Below are positions 20,140 through 45,924 of a stretch of DNA of 64,000 nt, one piece after another. The DNA comes from Dictyophora rubrovolvata (Eukaryota; Basidiomycota; Agaricomycetes; Phallales; Phallaceae). The notes below the pieces were generated by a model that had not been told where the DNA came from, searched no databases, and saw only the letters and a list, made by a program, of their open reading frames with translations. Every line of letters starts with the position of its first letter. Position 1 is the stretch's first letter. Location: the NCBI GenBank assembly GCA_029959195.1, contig CP114124.1, positions 868,001 to 932,000 of the forward strand, read 5' to 3'. Made by a program: the position numbers and the translations under genes.

Positions 20140-22591
20140 ATGTCCGTCCTAACATCAGGTGCGAATGCAGCACAAGCTGTTGGAGAATATTTGCAATCTC
20201 CAGACGACCTCATGAAAATAATCGCGTTCAGAAAGAAACTCGAGAAAGAAAAGGCTTCTATCGATAACAAGCTGAAGAGTGGTGTTAAAGAACAGCTCGA
20301 TACCACCAGAGAAGGGCTGCGGAAACTGTTCAGCACTCGTGATGATGTTCAGGGTATCAAGGATGAAATGGCTGCTTTGCATAGACATTACAGCGATCCC
20401 CAGAATGCTGTCAGTACGTTTGACCAGATTAGTCGGGTACGCTCTTTTTTTATTATTATTGTTTGAGATAGTACGTGATTTACGGGAAGAACGGTTTTCT
20501 TTATAGGTATCTACCGTACACCGGAATTTTGAACAGGTAGAAGAAATGGTCCGGAACCTACAGGACATGTCTTCGAAACTAGACGACTTAGCTGAGATGC
20601 TCCACGCCGAACAGCAAAACATCTTGGGTCCGGCTATCAATCTACTCCCTATTCACCACCAGATCCGTCAGCTCGAGACATTCCGCAACGAAACATTACA
20701 CCAGGCCAAATCGGCTAAGTCACAGTCACTCAAAGTCTTGAACCAACGCTTTGAAAGACTGGACAAGGTCATCGCCGATTTCAACGTTTATATCACCGCA
20801 CTATCGCGTAATGTTCTGCCTATTGTTCGCGCAGGTCATCCAGAGGTGATTGTCAAACTTTGCAAAATTGCAGAACTGGAAGGCTTGGAAGATCAAAGAG
20901 TTGGGTTTTTCTTCCCATCTTTCCTATAGCTAGATTTAACCCTCGTCCATGGTTAATTTAGGCAATCGCTATCAAACTATTGAAAAAAGCAGGAAAGGCG
21001 GACGCCGCATCTAGGTTCAAGTCTTTACAGGCCAACGCTCGGCAGCTGAAGCACTACAGATCAAACATGATGAAAAATATGGCTGAATCGATTCGAAAGG
21101 CCTTCGAAACGGCTTACGCTGAAGACCAAAACAACCCCTCTGCTTTTATCGACGGTCTAGGATGGATATATCAAGATATCATTCGCATTGAAGAAGACGT
21201 CGTACCCTGTTTTCCTCCCGATTATGACATTTACAAGTTCTATATTCGGGAGTATCACAAGACTCTGAACAACATAATCAAGAAACTCGTCGCGCAAGAA
21301 CCCGAAGCGTCCGTCATTTTACAGCTTCACGCATGGATGAAGGATTACCGAAAAAGCATGAAAGAATTAAATGTCCCCTCTGAGCTGCTGGAACCGCCTT
21401 TACTCGATGGAAAGGAACAATCCCTGATAGATGACTACCGTAATTTGATCGTGAAGAAACTAGATGAATGGAGCGGAAATATCATGAAAACGGAACTCAA
21501 GGACTTCATTGCACGTGAACAACCGCCGGAAGTTGATCCTGACGGTCTTTATGGCATGCAGGGCGCTGTTATAATGTTCCAAATGGTCAATCAACAAGTC
21601 GATCTTGCAGCCGATAGTAGGCAGGGGGCTATTCTCGCCCAAGTTATCGAGGATTGTAATCGCGTTATGCGTCAAACACAGTTGCAATGGATCAAGACCA
21701 TCGAGAGCGAGTTCAAAAAGCAAGTCGAAAAACCGGAGGAAGCCAAAGGTGGTCTTGTCGAATACGTTATTGCGGTGGCGAATGATCAAATCAAGAGCGC
21801 TGATTATGCTGAAGCTCTCTCAGCACGTCTCGAACCTTTAGTTTCCGAGAAATATCAAGTAGTTATCGGCGAGCGGCTCAACAACGCCATCGACGGATAT
21901 CTCGACGTTGCGAAGAAATGTACTCAAACGCTGATCGACCTCATATTCCACGACTTAAAACCAGCGACAAAGCAATTATTCACATCGACGTGGTATAATG
22001 GGATCATGGCACAAATCATCGAGACATTCCGAGATTACATGACAGATTACCAAACATACCTCAACCCATCTATCTTCCAACTACTATTGGAAGATCTACT
22101 AGATACGTTCTTAATCACATACTTGACAGCACTCGGAAACGCCTCCAAATTACGCATTCCCTCCGGAATCGATCGGATAAAAACGGACATTGGAGAAGCT
22201 TACTCTTTTTTCTCGGCATTCAAATCGCCTGCTGAACTAGAAGACTACTTCAAAGTCGTTGATATGGCTTTGTCATTACTTGAGGCATCGCAGAGTTTCG
22301 TGTACTTGTCGTATTGGAATTTTGCAAAAGTCCATGGGCCTTGTTTGGCATTCGTGGAAGGTTTGATGAAAGCTCGTGAAGATTTGGACAGGTCGGCTGT
22401 CAATGACATTATGGATAGTGTTAAGCGTAGAGTCAAAGAGGAGAAAATCACGGATCGTATGTTGATATCTATTTAAGACTTCTCAAACGGATTTTGACAC
22501 ATGCTTTGCTCTAGCGGAGGAACCGACGATAATGAAAAAGGTCGTTGTTCAAGGAACGTTTGCCCGGTTACTCAACGTTGCTAAACAGTAA
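20140..22591 (+). CDS. SEC6: Exocyst complex subunit Sec6
   Basis: Part of the exocyst that tethers secretory vesicles to the plasma membrane. Start MSVLTSGANAAQAVGEYLQS, then a long coiled coil (MKIIAFRKKLEKEKASIDNK, VHRNFEQVEEMVRNLQDMSS, HHQIRQLETFRNETLHQAKS). A 1.5-kb exon (20.96-22.46 kb) holds the Sec6 C-terminal helical bundle with WIYQDIIRIEEDVVPCFPPD, YDIYKFYIREYHKTLNNIIK, AVIMFQMVNQQVDLAADSRQ, PATKQLFTSTWY and the final QSFVYLSYWNFAKVHGPC. A short last exon gives EEPTIMKKVVVQGTFARLLN and the stop at 22589-22591. About 750 residues in five exons, a normal length. No breaks seen. Its 3' end is 114 bp from that of QNS1. Confidence 0.93.
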
Positions 22592-33025: not shown

Positions 33026-33610
33026 TGTAACTCAACAATAGCTATATGTCATAGCTAAATATATAATCAGAAAACTATGAAGATATTTGATTGAGGTTGT
33101 CTAGTCTCCATGGAGCGGGTCCTGGTGCTGATTTTGTGAAGAGGAAGTTGTCAGGGCTACTCACTCAGACTAGAGGGAGGGGATCCTAAGCAAAATGTAT
33201 TTTGGAAAAATACTAACTCACCTAGAGGGAGGGGATCCTAAGAGAACAAACTTAGGGATCCTTCCTCTAGGGCTACTAACTATATACTATGAAAAAACGG
33301 TGAAGGCCATATGCAGCCTTCGGTTCATGGACTGGGCGCGGATACGCACCGGTCCTGGATCTTTAGCTGGGGCCTAGGCCGTGGCTCTGATGGGAACGGG
33401 CGCTCAGTACCCGTTGGAGGGAAAGAAGGGAATATGGAAGGAAGGGGGAATGCAGGAGATGGGATAAAATATGAGAAATAAGGAAATGAATAAGATAAAC
33501 CAGAACCGAAGATAAACGAAGGAAAATAAGGGGACGAAGCTAGCATACCCTGACAGAAGTAGTGGATAATATAGTGAGTGTGTGAGTGTGGATCTGTCAT
33601 GAGCTGATGT
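33026..33610 (-). mobile_element. Fragment of a TGT...ACA two-ORF element (terminal part)
   Basis: 33026-33149 and 33556-33610 match the ORF-distal end of the family described at 38238-40884 (TGTAAC start, TATGTCAT, then GGGTCCTGGTGCTG). The two parts are separated by a solo LTR. Only the end of the element is present. Fossil, heavily truncated. Confidence 0.65.
33150..33555 (-). mobile_element. Solo LTR of the Ty3/gypsy family
   Basis: 406 bp in reverse orientation, bounded by TGTCAGGG and CCCTGACA and flanked by the 5-bp target duplication GAAGT (33145-33149 and 33556-33560). Same family as the LTRs at 33872, 42164 and 48295. It interrupts the older element fragment at 33026-33610. Confidence 0.93.
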
Positions 33611-33871
33611 TGCACACCAAAATCTATATTTGGCAAAAATTAGGGTAAACATTCCGAAGATTCCCTAATCCCATGATATGTCCCTCGGAGCTTGAATTCA
33701 CCTTTGCAACTACTCAAAACCTATGTCCAAACATTTTTTTATCCCAAAAATGTTGATACAAAAGATATGTCCTCACTCCAAATTCACTCTTCTTGTTCCC
33801 TGCCATCCCTTCATGCTCCTTCTATCAATGACTCTGATTGTTTTCATTTTGTCCCTCCTACTCCTGATATC
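33611..33871 (+). mobile_element. Truncated two-ORF element, ORF-proximal end
   Basis: Begins TGTTGCACACCAAAATC and runs, on the plus strand, through the leader and the first codons of ORF1 (MSSLQIHSSCSLPSLHAPS). It is cut off where the chromovirus LTR begins at 33872. Its orientation is opposite to the three longer copies downstream. Fossil fragment. Confidence 0.8.
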
Positions 33872-34808: not shown

Positions 34809-35613
34809 GTGATGTAAGCTTCACTATGCGCAAAAGGAAAAATAATACGCCTAGCGAAATACACAAGAAAAGAATGAGTGAGGTAGTCAATCTCCGCGGA
34901 GCGAGTCCAGGTGCTGCTTAGTGCGAAATAAAAAGGGGGGAGGTGATGGAAAACAACAACAAACAACAACAACCAAAAGACGGTTATTGTTAACAAATCA
35001 AAGATTGCTTGTAAGGCAAAGTACGATAATCGCAATAACTCAGATCGTAAGTTTATACTCTAAAATGTATGGTCTCAGAGTTTTCCAAAGGTAAAGATGT
35101 GAGTGTAGAGATAGACAAGAGGCAAAACCAAAAACACTAAACAAAAACCACAAACTTAAACTTGAGTCAAACCAACATAGGTATTGCTGCTGTTATAGGT
35201 ATTTACATGCAGTATTTATATGTTTTGGAACAATAAGAATGTTTTTGGGCTTTGAGTGGCAACACAATTAGTAATTGTGAGCCAGATTTGTAATAGGGAA
35301 GAAAAGAAACAAAGAGAAAAGCGAGTAAAATAAAAAAAAGGGGCATATGAGTCAGTGAGACTATACTATTATAAAGAGCGAACAAAAGAATTTCAAGGCA
35401 ATGACAAACAAAAAGAAAGAAAGGAGCAACATAAAAGAATGGATTTAGAATCAATACAAGTACAAAAGGAAAGAAAAAGGAGCAAACAAGAAAGGAAATG
35501 ATGAGAATAGGAGGTCATTTTATTCATCCTTACTAATTTTCCCAAAATAGACATCACCATCGATAAACGCTTCACAGCCTCAGATTTTCAATCTTCATCT
35601 CCTTCCTTTAACC

Positions 35614-36195
35614 TCAGAATCGATGTGCATTTGCCACTGCCATATGTATCCGTGTATTTCGTTGTTGAACTCTTGTTAAAGAGCTCCAATCGTACGGAAC
35701 TAAAGGCCTCCGCTCAAGGTACTCGGGAAGCGGTTGGGAAGTATCAACCTCTAGCGGACAGCAGTCAGGGGCAGGATGATTGTCGATCACATTAGTGGGA
35801 GCATCCATGAAAAGAAATTCATCATGATAAAGAAGTGGTTGATGGAATATGAACCGCCAAACAGGTTGTTCGCTACGATGAAACTGGCAAACCCAAACCA
35901 ATTCATATGAACAAGTGAGTATGTTAATATGGATTATTTCGTTCACTTTTGGATTCTCTGGGAATTTCAGTTTCTTGTAGGGTACCTGGTATTCTTGAAT
36001 GGGGACTAGAGAATGCGGCCATAACGTACTTCTGTCTACCTCGATGTTTGTACCAGAGATGCGATAAATCCATATTGTTGATTCAAAGTTGGCATATCGT
36101 TCGTCCAAAGTTATCCCTGTGAAAGGATAAAAGGGGTAAGGAAGGAAGGAAGTGGGGGCAAGTGATTCGTAGCCAAGAGGTTGTACGAGGCTCAT
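35614..36195 (-). CDS. ORF2 of element B1, unknown function
   Basis: 193 residues, not recognised. Begins MSLVQPLGYESLAPTSFLPY. It has the family motif IEVDRSTLWPHSLVPI, a strand-rich core (IIHINILTCSYELVWVCQFH) and WRFIFHQPLLYHDEFLFMDA. It is homologous to the ORF2 region at 39388-40023 and shares the D-x-[ST]-T-x-x-P motif with ORF1, which suggests an ancient duplication of one fold. No signal peptide, membrane segment or nuclease motif seen. Confidence 0.6.
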   Translation of the reverse strand: MSLVQPLGYESLAPTSFLPYPFYPFTGITLDERYANFESTIWIYRISGTNIEVDRSTLWPHSLVPIQEYQVPYKKLKFPENPKVNEIIHINILTCSYELVWVCQFHRSEQPVWRFIFHQPLLYHDEFLFMDAPTNVIDNHPAPDCCPLEVDTSQPLPEYLERRPLVPYDWSSLTRVQQRNTRIHMAVANAHRF

Positions 36196-36560
36196 GATGG
36201 AAGAGAAGGATAAGAAAGGATGGAATTAATTTAGACTCCGAAAGAAAAGAAACAAGACAACAAAAGAGGGGAATAAAAAAATAAAGAAGTCCTTGTTTTT
36301 CGTTTTAATTAGTCCTGATTATTCAAATGAAGTACTTCCTATAGTGTTATCCCAGATGTCTTAAATATAGCCGAACAGAATTTCTGAAGTCGATGTAGCT
36401 TGGAGACAGTAGAAACAGGAGTTGTAGGACGAAAAGAAGGTGATGAAGGTTCGGTGGGAGGATCAAAGGTGGAGATAGGAGGTTTTGGAGTCATGGGAAA
36501 TTGCGGAGTACCAGAATCATAGAAAGGAAGGAAAAATTCAGGTTCTGGCATGTGCTGATA

Positions 36561-37007
36561 TCAACGATGGATCCATGAACAAGGGACATCAAATACAATG
36601 TGCCAGAATGCATGTCTGTGTTCAGCAGTAGCCCATATCCTAGTAACTGTGTCCAGTAGACCTATGTGAATTGTGTACATATTCACCACAATGAACCATT
36701 CTTCATATCCTTCTAACCATAATTGTGTTCCAAAAGAAACCTTCTTATCGCCCGCATCTGAATACAAGATCAGATTCGAAGCTTTATGTCGACCGATAAT
36801 AATGGGGTTCAGGTATAATGGTAATAAGGTGGAGGGATCGAGGTTGAGATGTGCATAGGATGTGAAGTAGACATAGTACTGAGTGTCCAAATCACAGAGA
36901 TTGACATCAGGAGTAGGAGAGACAAAATGAAAACAATCAGAGTCATCGATAGAAGGAGCGTGAAGGGATGGCAGGGAACGAGAAGAGTGAATCTGGAGTG
37001 AGGACAT
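36561..37007 (-). CDS. ORF1 of element B1, unknown function
   Basis: 148 residues, not recognised. Begins MSSLQIHSSRSLPSLHAPSI, about 150 bp inside the element end. The core is DLDTQYYVYFTSYAHLNLDP followed by STLLPLYLNPIIIGR, then WFIVVNMYTIHIGLLD and WHIVFDVPCSWIHR. It aligns along its length with the 196-residue ORF1 at 40171-40761. A Pro/Ser/Thr-rich open stretch lies just downstream (36339-36551). Conservation between copies is stronger in the protein than expected for junk, by eye. Confidence 0.6.
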   Translation of the reverse strand: MSSLQIHSSRSLPSLHAPSIDDSDCFHFVSPTPDVNLCDLDTQYYVYFTSYAHLNLDPSTLLPLYLNPIIIGRHKASNLILYSDAGDKKVSFGTQLWLEGYEEWFIVVNMYTIHIGLLDTVTRIWATAEHRHAFWHIVFDVPCSWIHR

Positions 37008-37161
37008 ATCTTTTGTATCAATGTTTTTGGGATAAAAAAATGTTTTGGACGTGGGTTTTGGGTAGTTGCAAAAGTGAATTCAAGCTTCGAGGGACATATC
37101 GTGGGATTAGGGAATCTTCAGAACATTTACCCTAAATATAGATTTTGGTGCGCGACAGCGA

Positions 37162-37342
37162 TTGTCCTCGCATGCATGACATTCATTTCGTGAACACAGA
37201 CGAGATTGACAACCTTGTCGAACTGCTCCTTGCCCAAAAGGACGTTGCAGAAGCACAGAGTCGTGCAAGGCCCGGACCAACAGAAGAAGAAGAGACTCCT
37301 GCACCAGTAGCAACAGAGGATTTTCAGGAAGGCAACAAGTGA
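37162..37342 (+). other. Chromovirus gag, 3' segment
   Basis: Continues the interrupted zinc knuckle with CPRMHDIHFVNTDEIDNLVE, the usual gag C-terminus of agaricomycete chromoviruses, then an acidic tail. Fossil. Confidence 0.85.
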
Positions 37343-37458
37343 AGGATGCACTGTTAAGTTCCTGAAGTTACCGAAGATACTGGGCTTCAGTTAATTCAGG
37401 CAGACTCGTGGGACCGATGTCACAGACAATCGGTGTACTGAGCAGGCTTCAACTTATG

Positions 37459-37947
37459 TGTTGTGCCACTTACTTGTACGTGCTCAGCAATTTGCTTTGC
37501 AACACTCCATGGATAGTGGATATATCGGTTAGAGGTTCGGGACAGAGTTCAGAGTGAGCCCGGATTTAGCGGTCAGATTTTAGAGATGAAAATATCAAAC
37601 AAGAATAGCCACGAGTCAGATGACTAGTTTGATTTCAGAACTGAGGAACTAGATACATGATTCGGGGTTATTTATACTATGGGAATGTACTAGTTTGTCA
37701 GCACTGATAAAAGCAGTTTAACAATAAAACACGATTCAGATTACAATAAAACAATAAGACTAAAACGGGAATGAGCGGATTTGGAATACAATCAGTTATT
37801 GTATTCTATTTCGGGTAATTCGGGTTTAATGGATTACTTCGGAGAAAACATAATCATAACAGATGTGACGTAAGTTTCATAATCTTTGGAGTCATAATTC
37901 GGAGTAATATCGGTTAGCGGGTTTATCGGCAGATCTGGATCTTGACA
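37459..37947 (+). mobile_element. Solo LTR-like insertion between gag and pol
   Basis: 489 bp starting TGTTGTGCC and ending CTTGACA, with a TATA-like TTATTTATACTA in the middle. It sits between GGCTTCAACTTATG and TGCACCCTCATTGCC, which reads naturally as one sequence when the insert is ignored; a short TATG/CATG duplication is likely. It is a different LTR family from the host element. Fossil. Confidence 0.65.
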
Positions 37948-38237
37948 TGCACCCTCATTGCCGACATTTAATAGATTTGACGTTTTGTACATAGATCATG
38001 AACAAAATGATGACAATGATTTGAATTCTATTACCCCTGCTGTACCTCCTAAAAACCCCCCTCTCCCTACACCTTCTACGCCACCACCTCCACGACTTTC
38101 GACTTCAAAGTGGAAGTCATTACCCTCTGAATATCGACTTGCAGCCACTGCCGGTACTTAGAAACTTGAAATCTCAGTAGAGCTCCAGAGTACTGACACA
38201 GGAGATCTGATCACCAGCAAAGCCATGCTTGATACGG
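37948..38237 (+). other. Chromovirus pol start / protease, first segment
   Basis: Contains LPTFNRFDVLYIDHEQNDDN and a Pro-rich linker typical of the pol N-terminus in this group, and ends inside the protease active-site codons (KAMLDT), where the next element is inserted. Fossil. Confidence 0.8.
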
Positions 38238-39387
38238 TGTAACGATTCTAACTAGATAACTTTATGTCATGGCTAGTCTAATTGGATATCTATGGAGATA
38301 TTTGTTTTGAGGTCCTTAGTCTTCCGTGGAGTGGGTCCTGGTGCTGCTTAGGTGAATGTGAAATAGAGTGAATAAATGATAGCAGGTGATGAGGAGTGTG
38401 TGTTGATGTCAAATCAACAGCAACAACAAACAAACAACACCACAACAGTTGACTAGTGAGTGTAGTGTGTGCGTGAGAGGTACAAATTGTCGATGGGGGA
38501 TAACTGGAGTAACGAGTAATGAGGACAAACATTGAGCTGTGTCAGAGATGACGAAACAATGACAATAAACAGTAAAGGTTAGTTAAGGCTTCAGTGACAA
38601 TACGAATCGCTGAGTTTATACTCCAAGGCCTCAATCGGAGTAATCCAAGAAATAGATATGAGCATAGAAATAGACGGGAGACGAAACACTAAAAACTTGA
38701 CTTGACTTGACTAAAACTTAACTCGAACAAAACTATGAGACAACTGTTCCGGTAGATTGCTGCTGTTACAATTATTTACATGCAGTATATATACCATTTG
38801 GAAACATAAAGGAAAGCGGAATGATCACTCATCATTCGCCATGATAACAAAAGGAAACAAAAAGAGAACAAAGAAACAAAAGAAAAAGGAGAAAATGATG
38901 GAGGATACAATTACAGAAAAAGGGGAATCACATATGTGGTTAGGGGGAATAGGAGAAATATGTTGAAACAAAAGAGAAACAAAAGAGAAACAAAAGAGAA
39001 ACAAAAAGAGATCAAAAGAAAACGATGAAACCGGATTCCCAGCATAGCTTTACCAAAATCACCATCTGGCACTTCTCGCGCTACCTCTTACCCAAAACTA
39101 TAACCTTACCATCTCAAACTTCTTACTGATCTGGTTCTTGTTGATGAGATCTTCTTCTTCATGGCTGTGACACAATAATAATGGCTATGGCAATGCTGAT
39201 GCGCGAGAGCAGGAGCTAAGCAGAGAGCTTCAGGGAATCAGTGAATGTGTATCTCACTCAAAAACAAGGGGGGAGCCAAAAGCTAATTTTATTCTAGTGT
39301 AAAGAGAATTTTTATATACATTTTTGATTATAAGTCTAATGCAAATTCGGAGTTTTAGTATTTGAAAGATGGGAAGGATTTGTGAGG

Positions 39388-40023
39388 TCATGGGAAAGCT
39401 GTGTCAGCACTTGGGAATGGGGACAGAGATGTGCGGAAAATAAAGAGTTTCTGAATTATAATAAAAATGAACTCAACAAAGGATTCTTCTTGTAAGCTAT
39501 CATAATCCTCAACAACGCTTAACAATATCAGATCTTGAACAAGATTGGATTGGAGATCGGAATAGGAAGGGAGGGTTTGATTTCTAACAGAGTAGTCGGG
39601 AGGGGATGGGATGGCAGATAGGGGTGTGTCTATGAATAAGAATTGAGTATAACTTCGAAATTGATGACGAAAGACCAGTCTCCAGATTGATTCTTCTTGA
39701 CGATTTGTTGAAAGGAACTCGACAAACTCATACGATTTGTCCATGACATTAACATTAGTTCGTTCGTACAGGGTTAAAGTTCATGGATATCCTATCTCCA
39801 GATCGTCATAAGGAATAGTAATCTCCATTAGTGGCTGTGGAGTAATTGGAAGCATTGTGGAGGGATCGACATCAATTTCAGAAACAAGAGTATTGTAAAT
39901 ACGAAGTCGTGAGAGGAAATTAGGGTTGGGTCCGAATCTGAGAGAAGAATGATATTCAAAAGAGAAGAAAGGGAGTTGAAAAAGGGGAATAGGGGAAGTA
40001 GGAGTATCGTTATTGTCCGACAT
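39388..40023 (-). CDS. ORF2 region of element B2
   Basis: Two open stretches, 39781-40023 and 39388-39744, correspond to ORF2 of B1. They have the family motif EIDVDPSTMLPITPQPL near one end and WRLVFRHQFRSYTQFLFIDT in the other. Unknown function. They are treated as a decayed coding region of a fossil element. Confidence 0.5.
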
Positions 40024-40170
40024 GATGATATGAGTTAACCAAAATTTTCAAGTGCTAATGAAATGTCCAGAAAGAAAGAAGGAGATGAAATACAAATCTC
40101 ATCGCTTATCCTAAACAAGCCTTTTGTCCTAATTTTGTCCAAGAAGGTTTGAGCAAACATGTCGGATCTT

Positions 40171-40761
40171 TCAGAAGGATCGTTTGGATGGAGAAGAGGG
40201 GAGAGATATTGGTTCTGGCGAATGGGGTGAAAAACGAGACACTTGAGGATTTACAGGAACAAGATTGGCCGGTCTATATGGGCTATGTTTTTGCATTTTC
40301 ATGTTTTTCATGACAACCCAACGACTTGGCACATCTAGAACCAGGAATGTAAATTCGAACCCTTCTTGTGTCACTAACCAAATCTGATACGAGTCTTTAA
40401 CGGCTGATTCGGGTGTAGAATAAATGTTGATAATTGTAAACCAGTCTAATCGTTCCTTGATATAAACCTTTTCTCCAAACATGAGACCGGGGTGAACCAA
40501 ATCCGAACTTCTGCATTGACGAATAATAAGAGGTGGAGGGAACTTCGGGAGGTACGTTTCTTCATCGATGTCGAGACTCGCATATTGGGAACTATAGATA
40601 TAAAGAGTCGTATACAGATCCAAATCATATGTCCTTGGACTGGAAGGCAAAAAACGAAAAGGTGATATAGATTCATCATCGGAAGGGGGTAATGACTCGG
40701 TAGGAGATGCTGGAATGGGCAAAGAGATTGATGATGTATAGTGAAATGAAAATGCAGCCAT
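40171..40761 (-). CDS. ORF1 of element B2, unknown function
   Basis: 196 residues, open throughout. Begins MAAFSFHYTSSISLPIPASP. The core is DLDLYTTLYIYSSQYASLDI followed by DEETYLPKFPPPLIIRQC, then WFTIINIYSTPESAVKDSYQ and FTFLVLDVPSRWV. The C-terminus is basic and Pro/Ser-rich. It is clearly homologous to ORF1 of B1 and of the copy at 42585. Not similar to any gag, integrase or transposase I know. Confidence 0.62.
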   Translation of the reverse strand: MAAFSFHYTSSISLPIPASPTESLPPSDDESISPFRFLPSSPRTYDLDLYTTLYIYSSQYASLDIDEETYLPKFPPPLIIRQCRSSDLVHPGLMFGEKVYIKERLDWFTIINIYSTPESAVKDSYQIWLVTQEGFEFTFLVLDVPSRWVVMKNMKMQKHSPYRPANLVPVNPQVSRFSPHSPEPISLPSSPSKRSF

Positions 40762-40888
40762 TTTTCATAAGGTTTTTGATTTCGAGAGGCTGTGGTGTAT
40801 CGGTTAAGTTTTTGGTAGTTTGAAACTCCGCTTTGAACCAAAAATCGGAATGTTTCCTTATTAGGAAGATTTTGGTGCGCGACAACGG

Positions 40889-42146
40889 GTGCTAGTGGTA
40901 TGTTCCTAGACTGTGATTTCGTTGAGAGACATTGATTCCTGACTGTCAAGCTCCTGAAACCTATTCCCGTATTCAATGTTGATGGTACACCCAACCAGGC
41001 TGATGCCATCACACATGTGGTCGATCTGGTTATGAGGTATCGATCCCACTCTGAACGCGTCCTATTTGCTGTTATTGCACTTGGAAAATATCCTGTATTA
41101 CTGGGGCTACCTTGGTTCAAGGCCCACAACCTGGTGATTGATTATACTGCTGGAGAAGTGGAACTGACACATTGTAGTCTCCAATGTCGTTCCTGTACGC
41201 CCAGCTGGCCTTCGGGTCGTCGCACTAAACATTCCTTTCGACAGATCCGAATGTCTGCAGATGTGAAGCTTGACAACACCGAGGCTGAAGATCCTGACAT
41301 GCCTGATCTGGCAGACATAGAAGATGAGCTCCAGCTAGAGGATAGTGATCGACTCTTTGGTATTTCGATGGTGGACACTGGACCCGAGGTCCATTGCGTT
41401 GGCGCAACCGAGACCATCTCACAGAGACTTGCTCAAGCTCACACCAAGAACTCAGATGCTCCAGCCCCAAAGGGTTTTCACGATATCATGCCTGAACAAT
41501 TCCATGGCTTTGATGATATCTTTTCCAAAGAATTATTTGATTCACTACCGATGTCAAAGAAGTGGGATCACCCAATAGAACTCGTCTCTGGTTCAGAGCC
41601 CAAATCCAGTAAGATCTACCTGCTGTCACTGAAGGAACAGACTGAGTTGGATACGTTTCTGGAGGAAAACCTCAAATCAGGACGGATCTGACTCTCGAAG
41701 TCTCCAATGGCCTCACCGGTCTTCTTTATCAAAAAGAAGGATGGTTCCCTTTGTCTCATTCAGGATTACCAGGCTCTGAATGCAATGACGATCAAGAACC
41801 GCTATCCATTGCCCTTTATCCCGGAACTCGTCAATAAGCTGCAGGATGCCCGCTACTTCATGAAGCTCGATGTTCGATGGGGCTACAACAATGTGTGGAT
41901 AAAGGAAGGCGATGAGTGGAAGGCTGCATTTCGTACTAACAGAGGCCTTTTCAAACCTTTGGTGATGTTTTTCGGCCTTACTAACAGTCCAGCCACCTTC
42001 CAGACGATGATGAACGAAATCTTTGAGGACATGATCTCAGAAGGTGTCGTTGCTGTGTATATTGACGATATCCTCATCTATACATGAGACTTGGAGGAAC
42101 ACTGTCATATTACTCAACGTGTACTTGAACGGCTTCGCGAGCACCA
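40889..42146 (+). other. Chromovirus protease/RT, central segment
   Basis: Resumes with the protease flank (VFNVDGTPNQADAITHVVDL, VLLGLPWFKAHN) and continues into reverse transcriptase: SPMASPVFFIKKKDGSL, QDYQALNAMTIKNRYPLPFI, ARYFMKLDVRWGYNNVWI and the polymerase box VAVYIDDILIYT (about 42050-42085). Interrupted at 42147-42151 by the next nest. Fossil, broken. Confidence 0.88.
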
Positions 42147-42163
42147 GCTATTGTCAGGGTATG

Positions 42164-42569
42164 TGTCAGGGTACGCTAGCGTCGTCCCCTTATTTTTCTA
42201 CATTTATTTTCGGTTCTGGTCTATTTTATTTATTTCCATATTTCTCGTATTCTATCCCATCTCTTGCATTTCCCTCTCCTTCCATATTCCCATTTTTCCT
42301 CCAACGGGCGCTGAGCGCCCGTTCTCATCAGAGCCATGGCCTAGGCCCCGGCTAAAAGTCCGGGACCGGCGTGTATCTGCGCCCAGTCCATGAACCGAAG
42401 GCCACGTGTGGCCTTCGCCGTTTTTCATAGTATATAGTTAGTAGCCCTAGAGGAGGGATCCCTAAGTTTGTTCTCTTAGGATCCCCTCCCTCTAGGTGAG
42501 TTAGTATTATTCCTAGAATATATCTTGCTTAGGATCCCCTCCCTCTAGTCTGAGAGAGTAGCCCTGACA
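42164..42569 (+). mobile_element. Solo LTR nested in an LTR
   Basis: 406 bp, TGTCAGGG...CCCTGACA, with a perfect 5-bp duplication GTATG (42159-42163 and 42570-42574) taken from bases 8-12 of the host LTR. Same family as its host. Confidence 0.92.
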
Positions 42570-43749
42570 GTATGCTAGTGCCATTGTAAGCTTCACTATG
42601 CGCAAAAGGAAAATAATACACCTAGTGAAATACACAAGAAAAGAATGAGTGAGGTAGTCAATCTCCGCGGAGCGAGTCCAGGTACTGCTTAGTGCGAAAT
42701 AAAGGGGGGGGAGGTGATGGAAACAACAACAAACAACAACAACCAAAAGACGGTTACTGTTAACAAATCAAGGGTTGCTTGTGAGGCAAAGTATGATAAT
42801 CACAATAACTCAGATTGCAAGTTTATACTCCGAAATGTACAGTCTCAGAGTTTTCCAAAGGTAAAGACGTGAGCGTAGAGATAGACAAGAGGCAAAACCA
42901 AAAACACTAAACAAAAACCACAAACTTAAACTTGAGTCAAACCAACATAGGTATTGCTGCTGTTACAGGTATTTACATGCAGTATTTATATGTTTTGGAA
43001 CAATAAGAATGTTTTTGGACTTTGAGTGGCAACACAATTAGTAATTGTGAGCCGGATTTGTAATAAAGAAGAAAAGAAAAGCGAGTAAATAAAAAAAAGG
43101 GGCATATGAGTCAGTGAGACTATACTATTATAAAGAGTGAACAAAAGATTTTCAAGGCGATGACAAAACAAAAAGAAAGAAAGGAGCAACACAAAAGAAT
43201 GGATTTAGAATCAATACAAGTACAAAAGGAAAGAAAAAGGAGCAAACAAGAAAGGAAACAATGAGAATAGGAGGTTATTTTATTCATCCTTACTAATTTT
43301 CCCAAAATAGATATTACCATCGATAAGCGCTTCACAGCCTCAGATTTTCAATCTTCATCTCCTTCCTTTATCCTTGGAAACGATGTGCGTTCGCCACTGC
43401 CATATGTATCTGCGTATTTTGTTGTTGAACTCTTGTTAAAGAGCTCCAATCGTACGGAACTAAAGGTCTCTGCTCAAGGTACTCGGGAAGCGGTTGGGAA
43501 GTATCAACCTCTAGCGGACAGCAGTCAGGGGCAGGATGATTGTCGATCACATTAGTGGGAGCATCCATGAAAAGAAATTCATCATGATAAAGAAGTGGTT
43601 GATGGAATATGAACCGCCAAACAGGTTGTTCGCTACGATGAAACTGGCAAACCCAAACCAATTCATATGAACGAGTGAGTATGTTGATATGGATTATTTC
43701 ATTCACTTTGGATTCTCTGGGAATTCCAGTTTCTCGTAGGGTACCTGGT

Positions 43750-44350
43750 TGTAAGGGATTTGTTTTAGATTTAGAATAAACTTGACTCCTAATAAAATAT
43801 AAAAGAGTTTTGTTTAGGGATTGTTCAGCAACTAAAAGTCCTGTTATTGAAGGTGAGACACTTGAAGGAATATTTGAACTTAAGAATTAAGTTCAAATTA
43901 GTAGAGATAGATAGAGACTTATTACTAAGTCCTTGAGAATAGAGAAAGATAAGAGGAAAAAAGACCAATTTGATTGGTAAGCACTTTGGTGCACAACAGT
44001 AGTTACAAGATAGATTATTTACAAGAAAAATGAGCTCCTATTTATACACCTTGAGCAAGTACAAATAGCTCCAAACATTAGTAAGAGAAACATCATGTGA
44101 AAGATAAGAAATTACTTAAAAAGGAAGTGAATGAATAATAGTGGATCAGGGAAAATTATAGTGAGACAGGGAAGTGGAGAGAGATGATAAGAAAATAAAG
44201 GGGTTCCTAGAACTAAGTCATCTGACTGTTCCTGAAAGATAAGATACATTACAAATAAAGGATTATTAAAGCAAGCAGGAACTAAAAAAAAGAATAAAGG
44301 AAATACTTGTTTTTGGGTAGATAAGGGAGGAAATCATGAAATACATGACA
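43750..44350 (-). mobile_element. 601-bp solo LTR-like insertion in element B3
   Basis: Bounded by TGTAAGGGATTTG and ACATGACA, with a perfect 5-bp duplication CTGGT (43745-43749 and 44351-44355). It contains ATTTATACACCTTGAG, a TATA-like box. No coding region. It is an LTR family different from the others here; the strand is uncertain. Confidence 0.75.
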
Positions 44351-44966
44351 CTGGTATTCTTGAATGGGGACTAGAGAATGTGGCCATAATGTACTTCTGT
44401 CTATCTCGATGTTTGTACCAGAGATGCGATAAATCTGTATTGTTGATTTGAAGTTGGCATATTGTTCATCCAAAGTTATCCCTGTAAAAGGATAAAAGGG
44501 GTAAGGAAGGAAGGAAGTGGGGGCAAGTGATTCATAGCCAAGAGGTTGCACGAGGCTCATGATGGAAGAGAAGGATAAGAAAGGATAGAATTAATTTAGA
44601 CTCCGAAAGAAAGAAACAAGACAACAAAAGAGGGGAATAAAAAAATAAAGAAGTCCTTGTTTTTCATTTCAATTAGTCCTGATTATTCAAATGAAGTACT
44701 TCCTATAGTGTTATCCCAGATGTCTTAAATATAGCCGAACAGAATTTCCGAAGTCGATGCAGCTTGGGGACAGTAGAAACAGGAGTTGTAGGACGAAAAG
44801 AAGGTGATGAGGGTTCGGTGGGAGGATCAAAGGTGAAGATAGGAGGTTTTGGAGTCATGGGAAATTGCGGAGTACCAGAATCATAGAAAGGAAGGAAAAA
44901 TTCAGGTTCTGGTATGTGCTGATATCAATGATGGATCCATGAACAAGGGACATCAAATACAATGTG

Positions 44967-45416
44967 TCAGAATGCATGTCTGTGTTCAGCAGTAGCCCAT
45001 ATTCTAGTAACCGTGTCCAGTAGACCTATGTGAATTGTGTACATATTCACCACAACAAACCATTCTTCATATCCTTCTAACCATAATTGTGTTCCAAAAG
45101 AAACCTTCTTATCGCCCACATCTGAATACAAGATCAGATCCGAAGCTTTATGTCGACCGATAATAATGGGGTTTGGGTATAGTGGTAATAAGGTGGAGGG
45201 ATCAAGGTTGAGATGTGCATAGGATGTGAAGTAGACATAGTACTGAGTGTCCAAATCACAGAGATTGACATCAGGAGTAGGAGAGACAAAATGAAAACAA
45301 TCAGAGTCATCGATAGAAGGAGTGTGAAGGGACGGCAGGGAACGAGAGGAACGAATCTGGAGTGAGGACATATCTTTTGTATCAATGTTTTTGGGATAAA
45401 AAAAATGTTTGGACAT
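44967..45416 (-). CDS. ORF1 of element B3
   Basis: 149 residues open, nearly the same protein as ORF1 of B1 (MSSLQIRSSRSLPSLHTPSI; DLDTQYYVYFTSYAHLNLDP; WFVVVNMYTIHIGLLD). The open frame extends a little upstream of the B1 start (MSKHFFYPKNIDTKD). Unknown function. Confidence 0.55.
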   Translation of the reverse strand: MSKHFFYPKNIDTKDMSSLQIRSSRSLPSLHTPSIDDSDCFHFVSPTPDVNLCDLDTQYYVYFTSYAHLNLDPSTLLPLYPNPIIIGRHKASDLILYSDVGDKKVSFGTQLWLEGYEEWFVVVNMYTIHIGLLDTVTRIWATAEHRHAF

Positions 45417-45924
45417 GGGTTTTGGATAGTTGCGAAAGTGAATTCAAGCTCCGAGGGACATATTGTGGGATTAGGGAATCTTCGGAACATTTACCCTAAT
45501 TTTTGCCAAATATAGATTTTGGTGTGCAACACCGTCCCCTTATTTTCCTACATTTATCTTCGGTTCTGGTCTATTTTATTTATTTCCATATTTCTTGTAT
45601 TCTATCCCATCTCTTGGATTTCCCTCTCCTTCCGTATTCCCATTTTCCCTTCAACGGGCGCTGAGTGCCTGTTCTCATCAGAGCCATGGCCTAGGCCCCA
45701 GCTAAAAGTCCAGGACCAGCGTGTATCTGCGTCCAGTCCATGAACCGAAGGCCACGTGTGGCCTTCGCCGTTTTTCATAGTATATAGTTAGTAGCCCTAG
45801 AGGAGGGATCCCTAAGTTTGTTCTCTTAGGATCCCCTCCCTCTAGGTGAGTTAGTATTATTCCTAGAATATATTTTGCTTAGGATCCCCTCCCTCTAGTC
45901 TGAGTGAGTAGCCCTGACAGCTAT

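Follow-up and report, generated by a model that had tools for sequence, protein, structure and literature searches.

Three gene-bearing units with TGT...ACA ends

The stretch analysed here (the window) comprises 64,000 nt of contig CP114124.1 of the basidiomycete Dictyophora rubrovolvata, positions 868,001 to 932,000, i.e., C8:868001-932000 of the 28.24-Mb, 11-contig assembly in which all genome searches were made. It carries three units that begin with TGT, end with ACA and have two open reading frames (ORFs) on the minus strand, termed ORF1 and ORF2 (Table 1). An earlier note, made from the window sequence alone, had described these as mobile copies of one family. That all three are insertions, with the boundaries stated, is confirmed by the ends, the 4-bp flanking duplications and gap-free empty sites, and the ends recur genome-wide; however, at the DNA level copies 1 and 3 form family A and copy 2 belongs to a separate family B. 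A BLAST comparison of copies 1 and 2 shows a single short match near the 5′ end, and the terminal 17 bases are also common to both. Copy 2 differs from the typical 2.27-kb family B unit in its variant 5′ part and in an additional stretch. The length of copy 3 is due to an insert resembling a long terminal repeat (LTR) that lies within it.

Table 1. Positions of the units and associated features in the window
Feature	Position	Strand	Description	Flanking duplication
Copy 1	34813-37157		family A, 2345 bp, TGTAAGCTTCAC...GGTGCGCGACA	GTGA (34809-34812) / GCGA (37158-37161)
ORF2 of copy 1	35614-36195	-	193 aa, whole	
ORF1 of copy 1	36339-37007	-	stop-interrupted, 148-aa and 70-aa pieces in one frame	
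TATA-like block, copy 1	35202-35219	-	conserved between A and B, points out of the plus-strand 5′ end	
Copy 2	38238-40884		family B, 2647 bp	ACGG/ACGG (38234-38237, 40885-40888)
ORF2 of copy 2	39388-40023	-	two pieces, 39781-40023 and 39388-39744	
ORF1 of copy 2	40171-40761	-	196 aa, most of ORF1 (the nested B copy of L034 has 210 aa)	
TATA-like block, copy 2	38775-38792	-	conserved between A and B	
Copy 3	42585-45531		family A, 2947 bp, of which 601 bp are a nested insert	CCAT (42581-42584) / CCGT (45532-45535)
ORF2 of copy 3	43368-44560	-	divided by the nested insert into 44282-44560 and 43368-43568	
ORF1 of copy 3	44967-45416	-	broken	
TATA-like block, copy 3	42972-42989	-	conserved between A and B	
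LTR-like insert inside copy 3	43750-44350		TGTAAGGG...ATGACA	CTGGT (43745-43749, 44351-44355)
Truncated family A 3′ part	33608-33871	-	88.7% to copy 1 bases 2091-2345	

A genome search with copy 1 DNA gave at least 59 matches, which are spread over all 11 contigs and in many cases measure 2.33-2.37 kb, with 87-96% identity, and a search with copy 2 DNA gave at least 110 matches for family B (the best 40 of 182 A candidates and the best 40 of 201 B candidates were scored). Searching the genome with the ends, as the earlier note had proposed, located the shared 3′ end pattern GATTTTGGTGYRYRACA at 136 places; the reversed control gave 0. Unit size is mostly 2.2-2.65 kb. A check for terminal inverted repeats, which covered copies 1 and 2, found none in either.

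Family B is, to judge from a mean pairwise identity of 0.964 over 21 units, recent, and about half of the differences are of the CpG type. B copies sit nested in A copies, each with its own duplication. In L030 (2240-4509) and L033 (3115-5380), B copies of opposite orientation occupy an identical site of the TCGC type in two A copies, at A base about 1935-1939; thus one target site has been used repeatedly. Chimaeric units, in which the first 415 bp or so are of family A and the remainder of family B, are present in L042, L043 and L045. The L042 chimaera is surrounded by a CCGA/CCGA duplication and therefore appears to have itself moved; that of L045 has the non-matching flanks TCAG/CCGG.

L042 (C1:870000-879900) and L043 (C1:896000-905900) form the two arms of an inverted duplication; they agree at 99.8% over 5029 bp and have near-identical flanks. 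More inverted pairs, whose search scores are equal or almost so, are found on C3, C4, C7, C8 and C10. These pairs hint at several large palindromes, which could be either repeats of the centromere type or artefacts of assembly.

Target duplications and empty sites

The earlier note had described 4-bp flanking duplications, exact for copy 2 and with one mismatch each for copies 1 and 3, and this description holds. Genome-wide, 76 rows were located, of which 60 are two-ended; removal of three units whose ends had been paired wrongly, and of one locus present in duplicate, left 56 units. The two flanks match exactly in 21 units and match in another 28 when CG to TG or CA changes are allowed, i.e., duplications are matched in 49 of 56 units, with seven mismatched. 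Permuted partners gave a mean of 5.2 matches and a maximum of 12 in 1000 permutations. The centre of the flank is CG, TG or CA in 112 of 112 cases and exactly CG in 70, and exact CG at eight shifted positions is seen in only 0-6 of 112. The duplication is N-CG-N. The outer bases vary. Counts among the 49 matched units, every centre being rendered as CG, are CCGC (8), CCGG (6), ACGG (5), CCGT (4), GCGC (4), GCGA (4) and others. Duplications have mostly intact CG in family B and are mostly decayed in family A. Given the CG, TG and CA centres found genome-wide, the one-base mismatches GTGA/GCGA of copy 1 and CCAT/CCGT of copy 3 are therefore best read as CpG decay, by deamination of an N-CG-N site.

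To look for empty sites, the flanks of 60 units were joined, minus one 4-bp copy, and compared with the locus DNA examined. A match spanning the junction was obtained for 30 of the 60 units, a count that includes a self-hit (L019), both the L042 and L043 copies and several gapped alignments. Gap-free empty sites are present for copy 1 in L036 (158 bp, 93.0%), for copy 2 in L036 (158 bp, 94.3%) and L048 (157 bp, 93.0%), and for copy 3 in L036 (95 bp, 94.7%) and at window positions 42171-42265 (95 bp, 92.6%), the left side of the copy 3 matches being only 15 bp. The paralogous empty sites of all three window copies carry a single copy of the target.

Gypsy gag and reverse transcriptase (RT) frames lie at or adjoining the empty sites in L036 and L048; the element that harbours copies 1 and 2 is thus a Gypsy. 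Copy 3 has an LTR of the TGTCAGGG...CCCTGACA kind around it, and that LTR is nested too. Window positions 42152-42584 and 45532-45919 consist of nested LTR-like repeats of this kind, in which the repeat at 42164-42569 (duplication GTATG) lies inside another that also harbours copy 3. LTRs of the TGTCAGGG type, one of them on the Gypsy element in L036, have 5-bp duplications (ATGAG, ACTAT, GACAG, GTATG), and the 4-bp cuts at CG were thus probably made by another enzyme. An ordinary host gene, with an exocyst Sec6 frame (Pfam E 1.3e-131), is found elsewhere in the window at 21067-22476 on the plus strand.

An origin of this pattern in chance or artefact, i.e., in host genes or in repeats of an ordinary kind whose ends agree by coincidence, is refuted by the 136 ends against none in the control, by 49 matched duplications against a permutation maximum of 12 and by the gap-free empty sites, and can be given practically no credence.

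ORF1 and ORF2

In intact units ORF1 has 222 amino acids (aa) in family A and 210 aa in family B, and ORF2 has 193 aa and 188 aa, respectively. The two minus-strand ORFs that the earlier note assigned to every copy are traceable in each, but no window copy has both whole: copy 1 retains ORF2 only, copy 2 most of ORF1, and copy 3 neither. By length criteria, 5 of 23 units in family A and 11 of 21 in family B retain the two ORFs intact; the family A ORF1 is whole, at 222 aa, in L010 and L016. Protein identity between A and B is 34% for ORF1 and 32% for ORF2. A motif common to both ORFs had been written D-x-[ST]-T-x-x-P; it is indeed shared, in the form D-x-x-T-x-x-P, with D-E-E-T in the family B ORF1. 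Kinship between ORF1 and ORF2, which the earlier note had proposed, is weakly suggested by an hhalign comparison (P 0.0014, probability 17%, 43 columns).

The earlier note had seen in the ORFs no likeness to a known gag, pol or transposase. No match was detected in Pfam (up to E 5), NCBIfam or the PDB sequences, and PHROGs gave a single, non-significant match at E 0.2. Viral contigs, searched with both ORFs, and prokaryote contigs, searched with ORF2, contained no relative. Beyond this genome three relatives were found by profile: query A1 gave P0008, with 82% identity to the family B ORF1, and query A2 gave P0009, with 58% identity to the family A ORF2, and P0010; a single-sequence query with P0003 gave none. 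In the D. rubrovolvata genome, a search with P0009 produced at least 150 matches, some of which are pieces of one copy; these matches are of A type, of B type and of apparent further families at 27-39%. At C1:2144500-2145562 two adjacent stop-free ORF2-like frames display 31% and 37% identity to P0009, and these probably represent the ORF1 and ORF2 of yet another family, a divergent one.

Between subfamilies (L042-L045, L047 and L048), over stretches of at least 60 codons, the ratio of nonsynonymous to synonymous change (dN/dS) is 0.14-0.42 at dS of 0.18-0.59, and the third codon position is the most changed in 12 of 15 comparisons. The ORFs are under purifying selection between subfamilies. 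The favoured reading is that ORF1 and ORF2 encode proteins of the element itself, which selection maintains.

It should be considered whether the two proteins could jointly constitute a recombinase of an unrecognised type, which would make the units autonomous elements of a new kind. Both are conserved as proteins although families A and B have little other DNA in common, and no other dedicated enzyme was identified. However, the AlphaFold model of ORF2 has a predicted all-beta core, without the RNase H-like order of DDE enzymes, at modest to low confidence (mean pLDDT 59, pTM 0.60). Inspection of the ORF1 and ORF2 alignments by eye made no catalytic acidic triad evident; the ORF1 model (pLDDT 41) is unusable for judging this. 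A recombinase made of ORF1 and ORF2 is thought very improbable.

Search for the moving enzyme

The explanation favoured here, to which we give an even chance, is that the units are stand-alone, LTR-shaped and gene-bearing, and that an enzyme of the integrase type, acting in trans, inserts them at CpG. Action in trans is proposed because ORF2 is predicted to be all-beta and neither ORF matches an integrase. Profile searches of the genome gave 69 rve, 75 RVT_1, 24 RVT_2 and 61 H2C2 matches. No same-strand RT is present within 6 kb of 7 of the 69 rve and 8 of the 61 H2C2 matches, and five of these seven RT-less rve matches are in open frames of 224 aa or less. The frame at C4:2009388 (763 aa) was rejected as a helper because its scores equal those of Copia copies having RT, and C3:653444 (frame 653231-653752, 934 aa), the only long RT-less frame with both rve and H2C2, because its scores equal those of RT-bearing Gypsy copies. 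Within the sensitivity of the rve, RVT and H2C2 profile search, no Ginger-type transposase gene was recognised in the genome. Gypsy, Copia, tnp2- and Tc1-type sequences, together with CpG-type decay, are present in it and would by themselves point to a fungus, probably of the basidiomycetes.

A larger relative, with an integrase between the same ends, had been envisaged in the earlier note. Longer A copies, those of L030 and L032-L039, were considered for this part and rejected: they are family A units interrupted by other sequences, namely B copies, LTR-like inserts, a Gypsy element (L036) and frames with weak tnp2 matches (L038).

The earlier note had also pointed to Ginger-type transposons. 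As described in PMC2836005, Ginger1 elements, which are related to Gypsy integrases, have 4-bp duplications of CCGG or CCGT/ACGG, TGTNR ends, inverted repeats of 40-270 bp and a single transposase of 500-800 aa. If the present units were non-autonomous members of the Ginger1 group, they would be derivatives or satellites moved by a Ginger1 transposase. Like Ginger1, they are dispersed single units with TGTNR ends (TGTAA, and at the other end TGTCG, the reverse complement of CGACA) and 4-bp CG-centred duplications, which are CCGG, CCGT or ACGG in 15 of the 49 matched units; in addition, a Ginger2 vestige is reported from a fungus, Malassezia globosa (PMC2836005). Unlike Ginger1, copies 1 and 2 lack inverted repeats, there are two short ORFs without an integrase match, and the N-CG-N target is broader than CCGG/CCGT. 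Moreover, the seven RT-less rve matches consist of five in short frames and two in long frames that score like Copia and Gypsy integrases, and the Ginger1 reports in the section consulted of PMC2836005 are from animals only. Thus the end pattern and the CG-centred 4-bp target of the Ginger hint stand, and the inverted repeats and a transposase in the element do not. Membership in the Ginger1 group seems unlikely. Since neither inverted repeats (in copies 1 and 2) nor a transposase was detected, the units are not filed under Ginger1, but they may work like it.

Stand-alone units or solo LTRs

Two possibilities had been put forward in the earlier note, namely a non-autonomous element that is mobilised in trans and very long solo LTRs that bear genes, and it is chiefly between these that the evidence leaves the choice. 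As solo LTRs, the units would derive from a retrotransposon with very long LTRs, in which ORF1 and ORF2 are accessory genes of U3 and a TATA-like block is the promoter at the U3/R border; full-length copies would have been lost, or become very rare, through LTR-LTR recombination. We consider this the main rival and a possibility to be taken seriously, although the less probable of the two.

Several features of the units are those of Ty3/Gypsy solo LTRs, i.e., the TGT...ACA ends, a short duplication of fixed length and the lack of inverted repeats in copies 1 and 2. From the plus-strand 5′ end to the TATA-like block, TTTACATGCAGTAT[AT]TAT on the plus strand, the distance is about 390 bp for copies 1 and 3 and about 540 bp for copy 2; to judge from its sequence, the block would be a promoter directed outward. 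Read on the ORF strand, the order is genes, TATA-like block, end, as in U3-R-U5. Template switching could yield chimaeric A/B units such as those described above. The units differ from Ty3/Gypsy solo LTRs in that two conserved genes lie inside them, in that no full-length element is confirmed (the flanks of two candidate pairs were not read), and in their 4-bp CG-centred duplication, compared with the 5 bp of TGTCAGGG-type Gypsy LTRs.

A protein gene within an LTR has a precedent in mouse mammary tumour virus (MMTV), whose sag is a 3′-terminal accessory gene in U3. The units resemble the MMTV type of LTR in having protein genes upstream of the presumed promoter, and differ from it in the two weakly related proteins, the non-animal genome and the absence of any proviral internal region among the sequences seen. 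A literature search recovered no title or abstract that describes such elements, subscription papers being largely outside its reach.

If the units were LTRs, same-orientation pairs enclosing RT and integrase would be expected in excess, and a search for direct copies around an internal region had been proposed in the earlier note. Among the 150 ORF2 matches listed, pairs 2.6-15 kb apart are in the same orientation in 34 cases and opposite in 40, and RT plus rve are enclosed by 4 of the 34 and 6 of the 40. The 100 listed 3′ ends form 23 same- and 26 opposite-orientation pairs, with RT plus rve enclosed in 2 and 6. No same-orientation excess is seen in either list, which speaks for a stand-alone unit over an LTR pair arrangement. 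The idea that close pairs are mostly inverted was dropped in view of the 34 against 40 counts. Among the 56 exact 3′ ends, the sole same-orientation pair within 15 kb is formed by window copies 1 and 2, which belong to different families; this test misses pairs with one decayed end. An RT fragment lies between copies 1 and 3; it belongs to the Gypsy element into which both have inserted, and each copy has its own duplication.

A comparison of 134 flanks recognised no shared internal sequence, or remnant of one, next to the units. Eight comparisons, from six locus pairs, show similarity beginning at the unit boundary, and these are interpreted as target repeats that the loci have in common, or as the duplication of L042/L043, rather than as an internal region belonging to the units. 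In addition, for a family as recent as family B full-length copies would be expected if the units were solo LTRs.

A number of observations weigh against stand-alone units moved in trans. The proposed helper enzyme is unseen. The order of genes, TATA-like block and end, with the absence of inverted repeats in copies 1 and 2, fits an LTR better than a DNA transposon. The flanks do not match in 7 of 56 units, as recombination between copies or between LTRs would produce. Two same-orientation pairs enclose RT plus rve and are candidates for full-length elements: C6:2088497/2103121, in which both ORF2 are B-like and RT and rve are on the minus strand between them, and C3:661083/674541, with the RT and rve of a 1186-aa frame between. 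The ORF2 scores of the C6 pair differ (61.0 vs 52.5 bits), and the C3 pair has one ORF2 match among those listed, which is degenerate; both facts argue against fresh LTR pairs, but either pair could be an old one. A roughly 560-bp LTR-like element, TGTTGCG...TATCA, in L034 (about 977-1536) and L035 (562-1126) has apparent 4-bp duplications, CAAG and AGGA, which are not CG-centred. As for the ORFs, dN/dS within families is scattered from about 0.2 to more than 1, and the third-position excess is absent in 3 of 15 comparisons (those of the B ORF2 with L042 and with L045, and that of a B ORF1 piece of 26 codons in L047). Finally, the preference for stand-alone units over solo LTRs draws largely on absence of evidence in lists that hold 100 of the 136 3′ ends, the best 40 of 201 B candidates and the best 150 of 178 ORF2 candidates.

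Proposed mode of insertion and meaning

For the stand-alone units favoured here, the element would be a diverse set of LTR-shaped units with TGT...ACA ends, two genes and an outward TATA-like block near one end. The whole unit would be inserted by strand transfer of the integrase type (retroviral or Ginger-like), and the target would be cut with a 4-bp stagger across CpG, which would leave the N-CG-N duplication. The cutting enzyme would most likely be supplied in trans. The integrase-type chemistry, the mobilisation in trans and the absence of a full-length LTR form are what we infer from the arrangement of the units. That they represent a new kind of element is put forward tentatively: such an element would be self-contained and LTR-shaped, without inverted repeats or an internal domain, would carry two related orphan proteins under selection, and would use a foreign integrase at CpG, perhaps with guidance towards repeat DNA that is methylated.

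An integrase is common to LTR retrotransposons and DNA transposons of the Ginger type, one of which gave rise to the other. If the units move alone, these gene-bearing look-alikes of bare LTRs would be intermediate between LTR retrotransposons and Ginger-type elements. Two selected genes inside an LTR outside the animal retroviruses are, to our knowledge, rare, and if the units are solo LTRs instead, they would be such a case. The CpG-centred target is sharp, and the duplications double as a record of CpG decay, mostly intact in family B and mostly decayed in family A.

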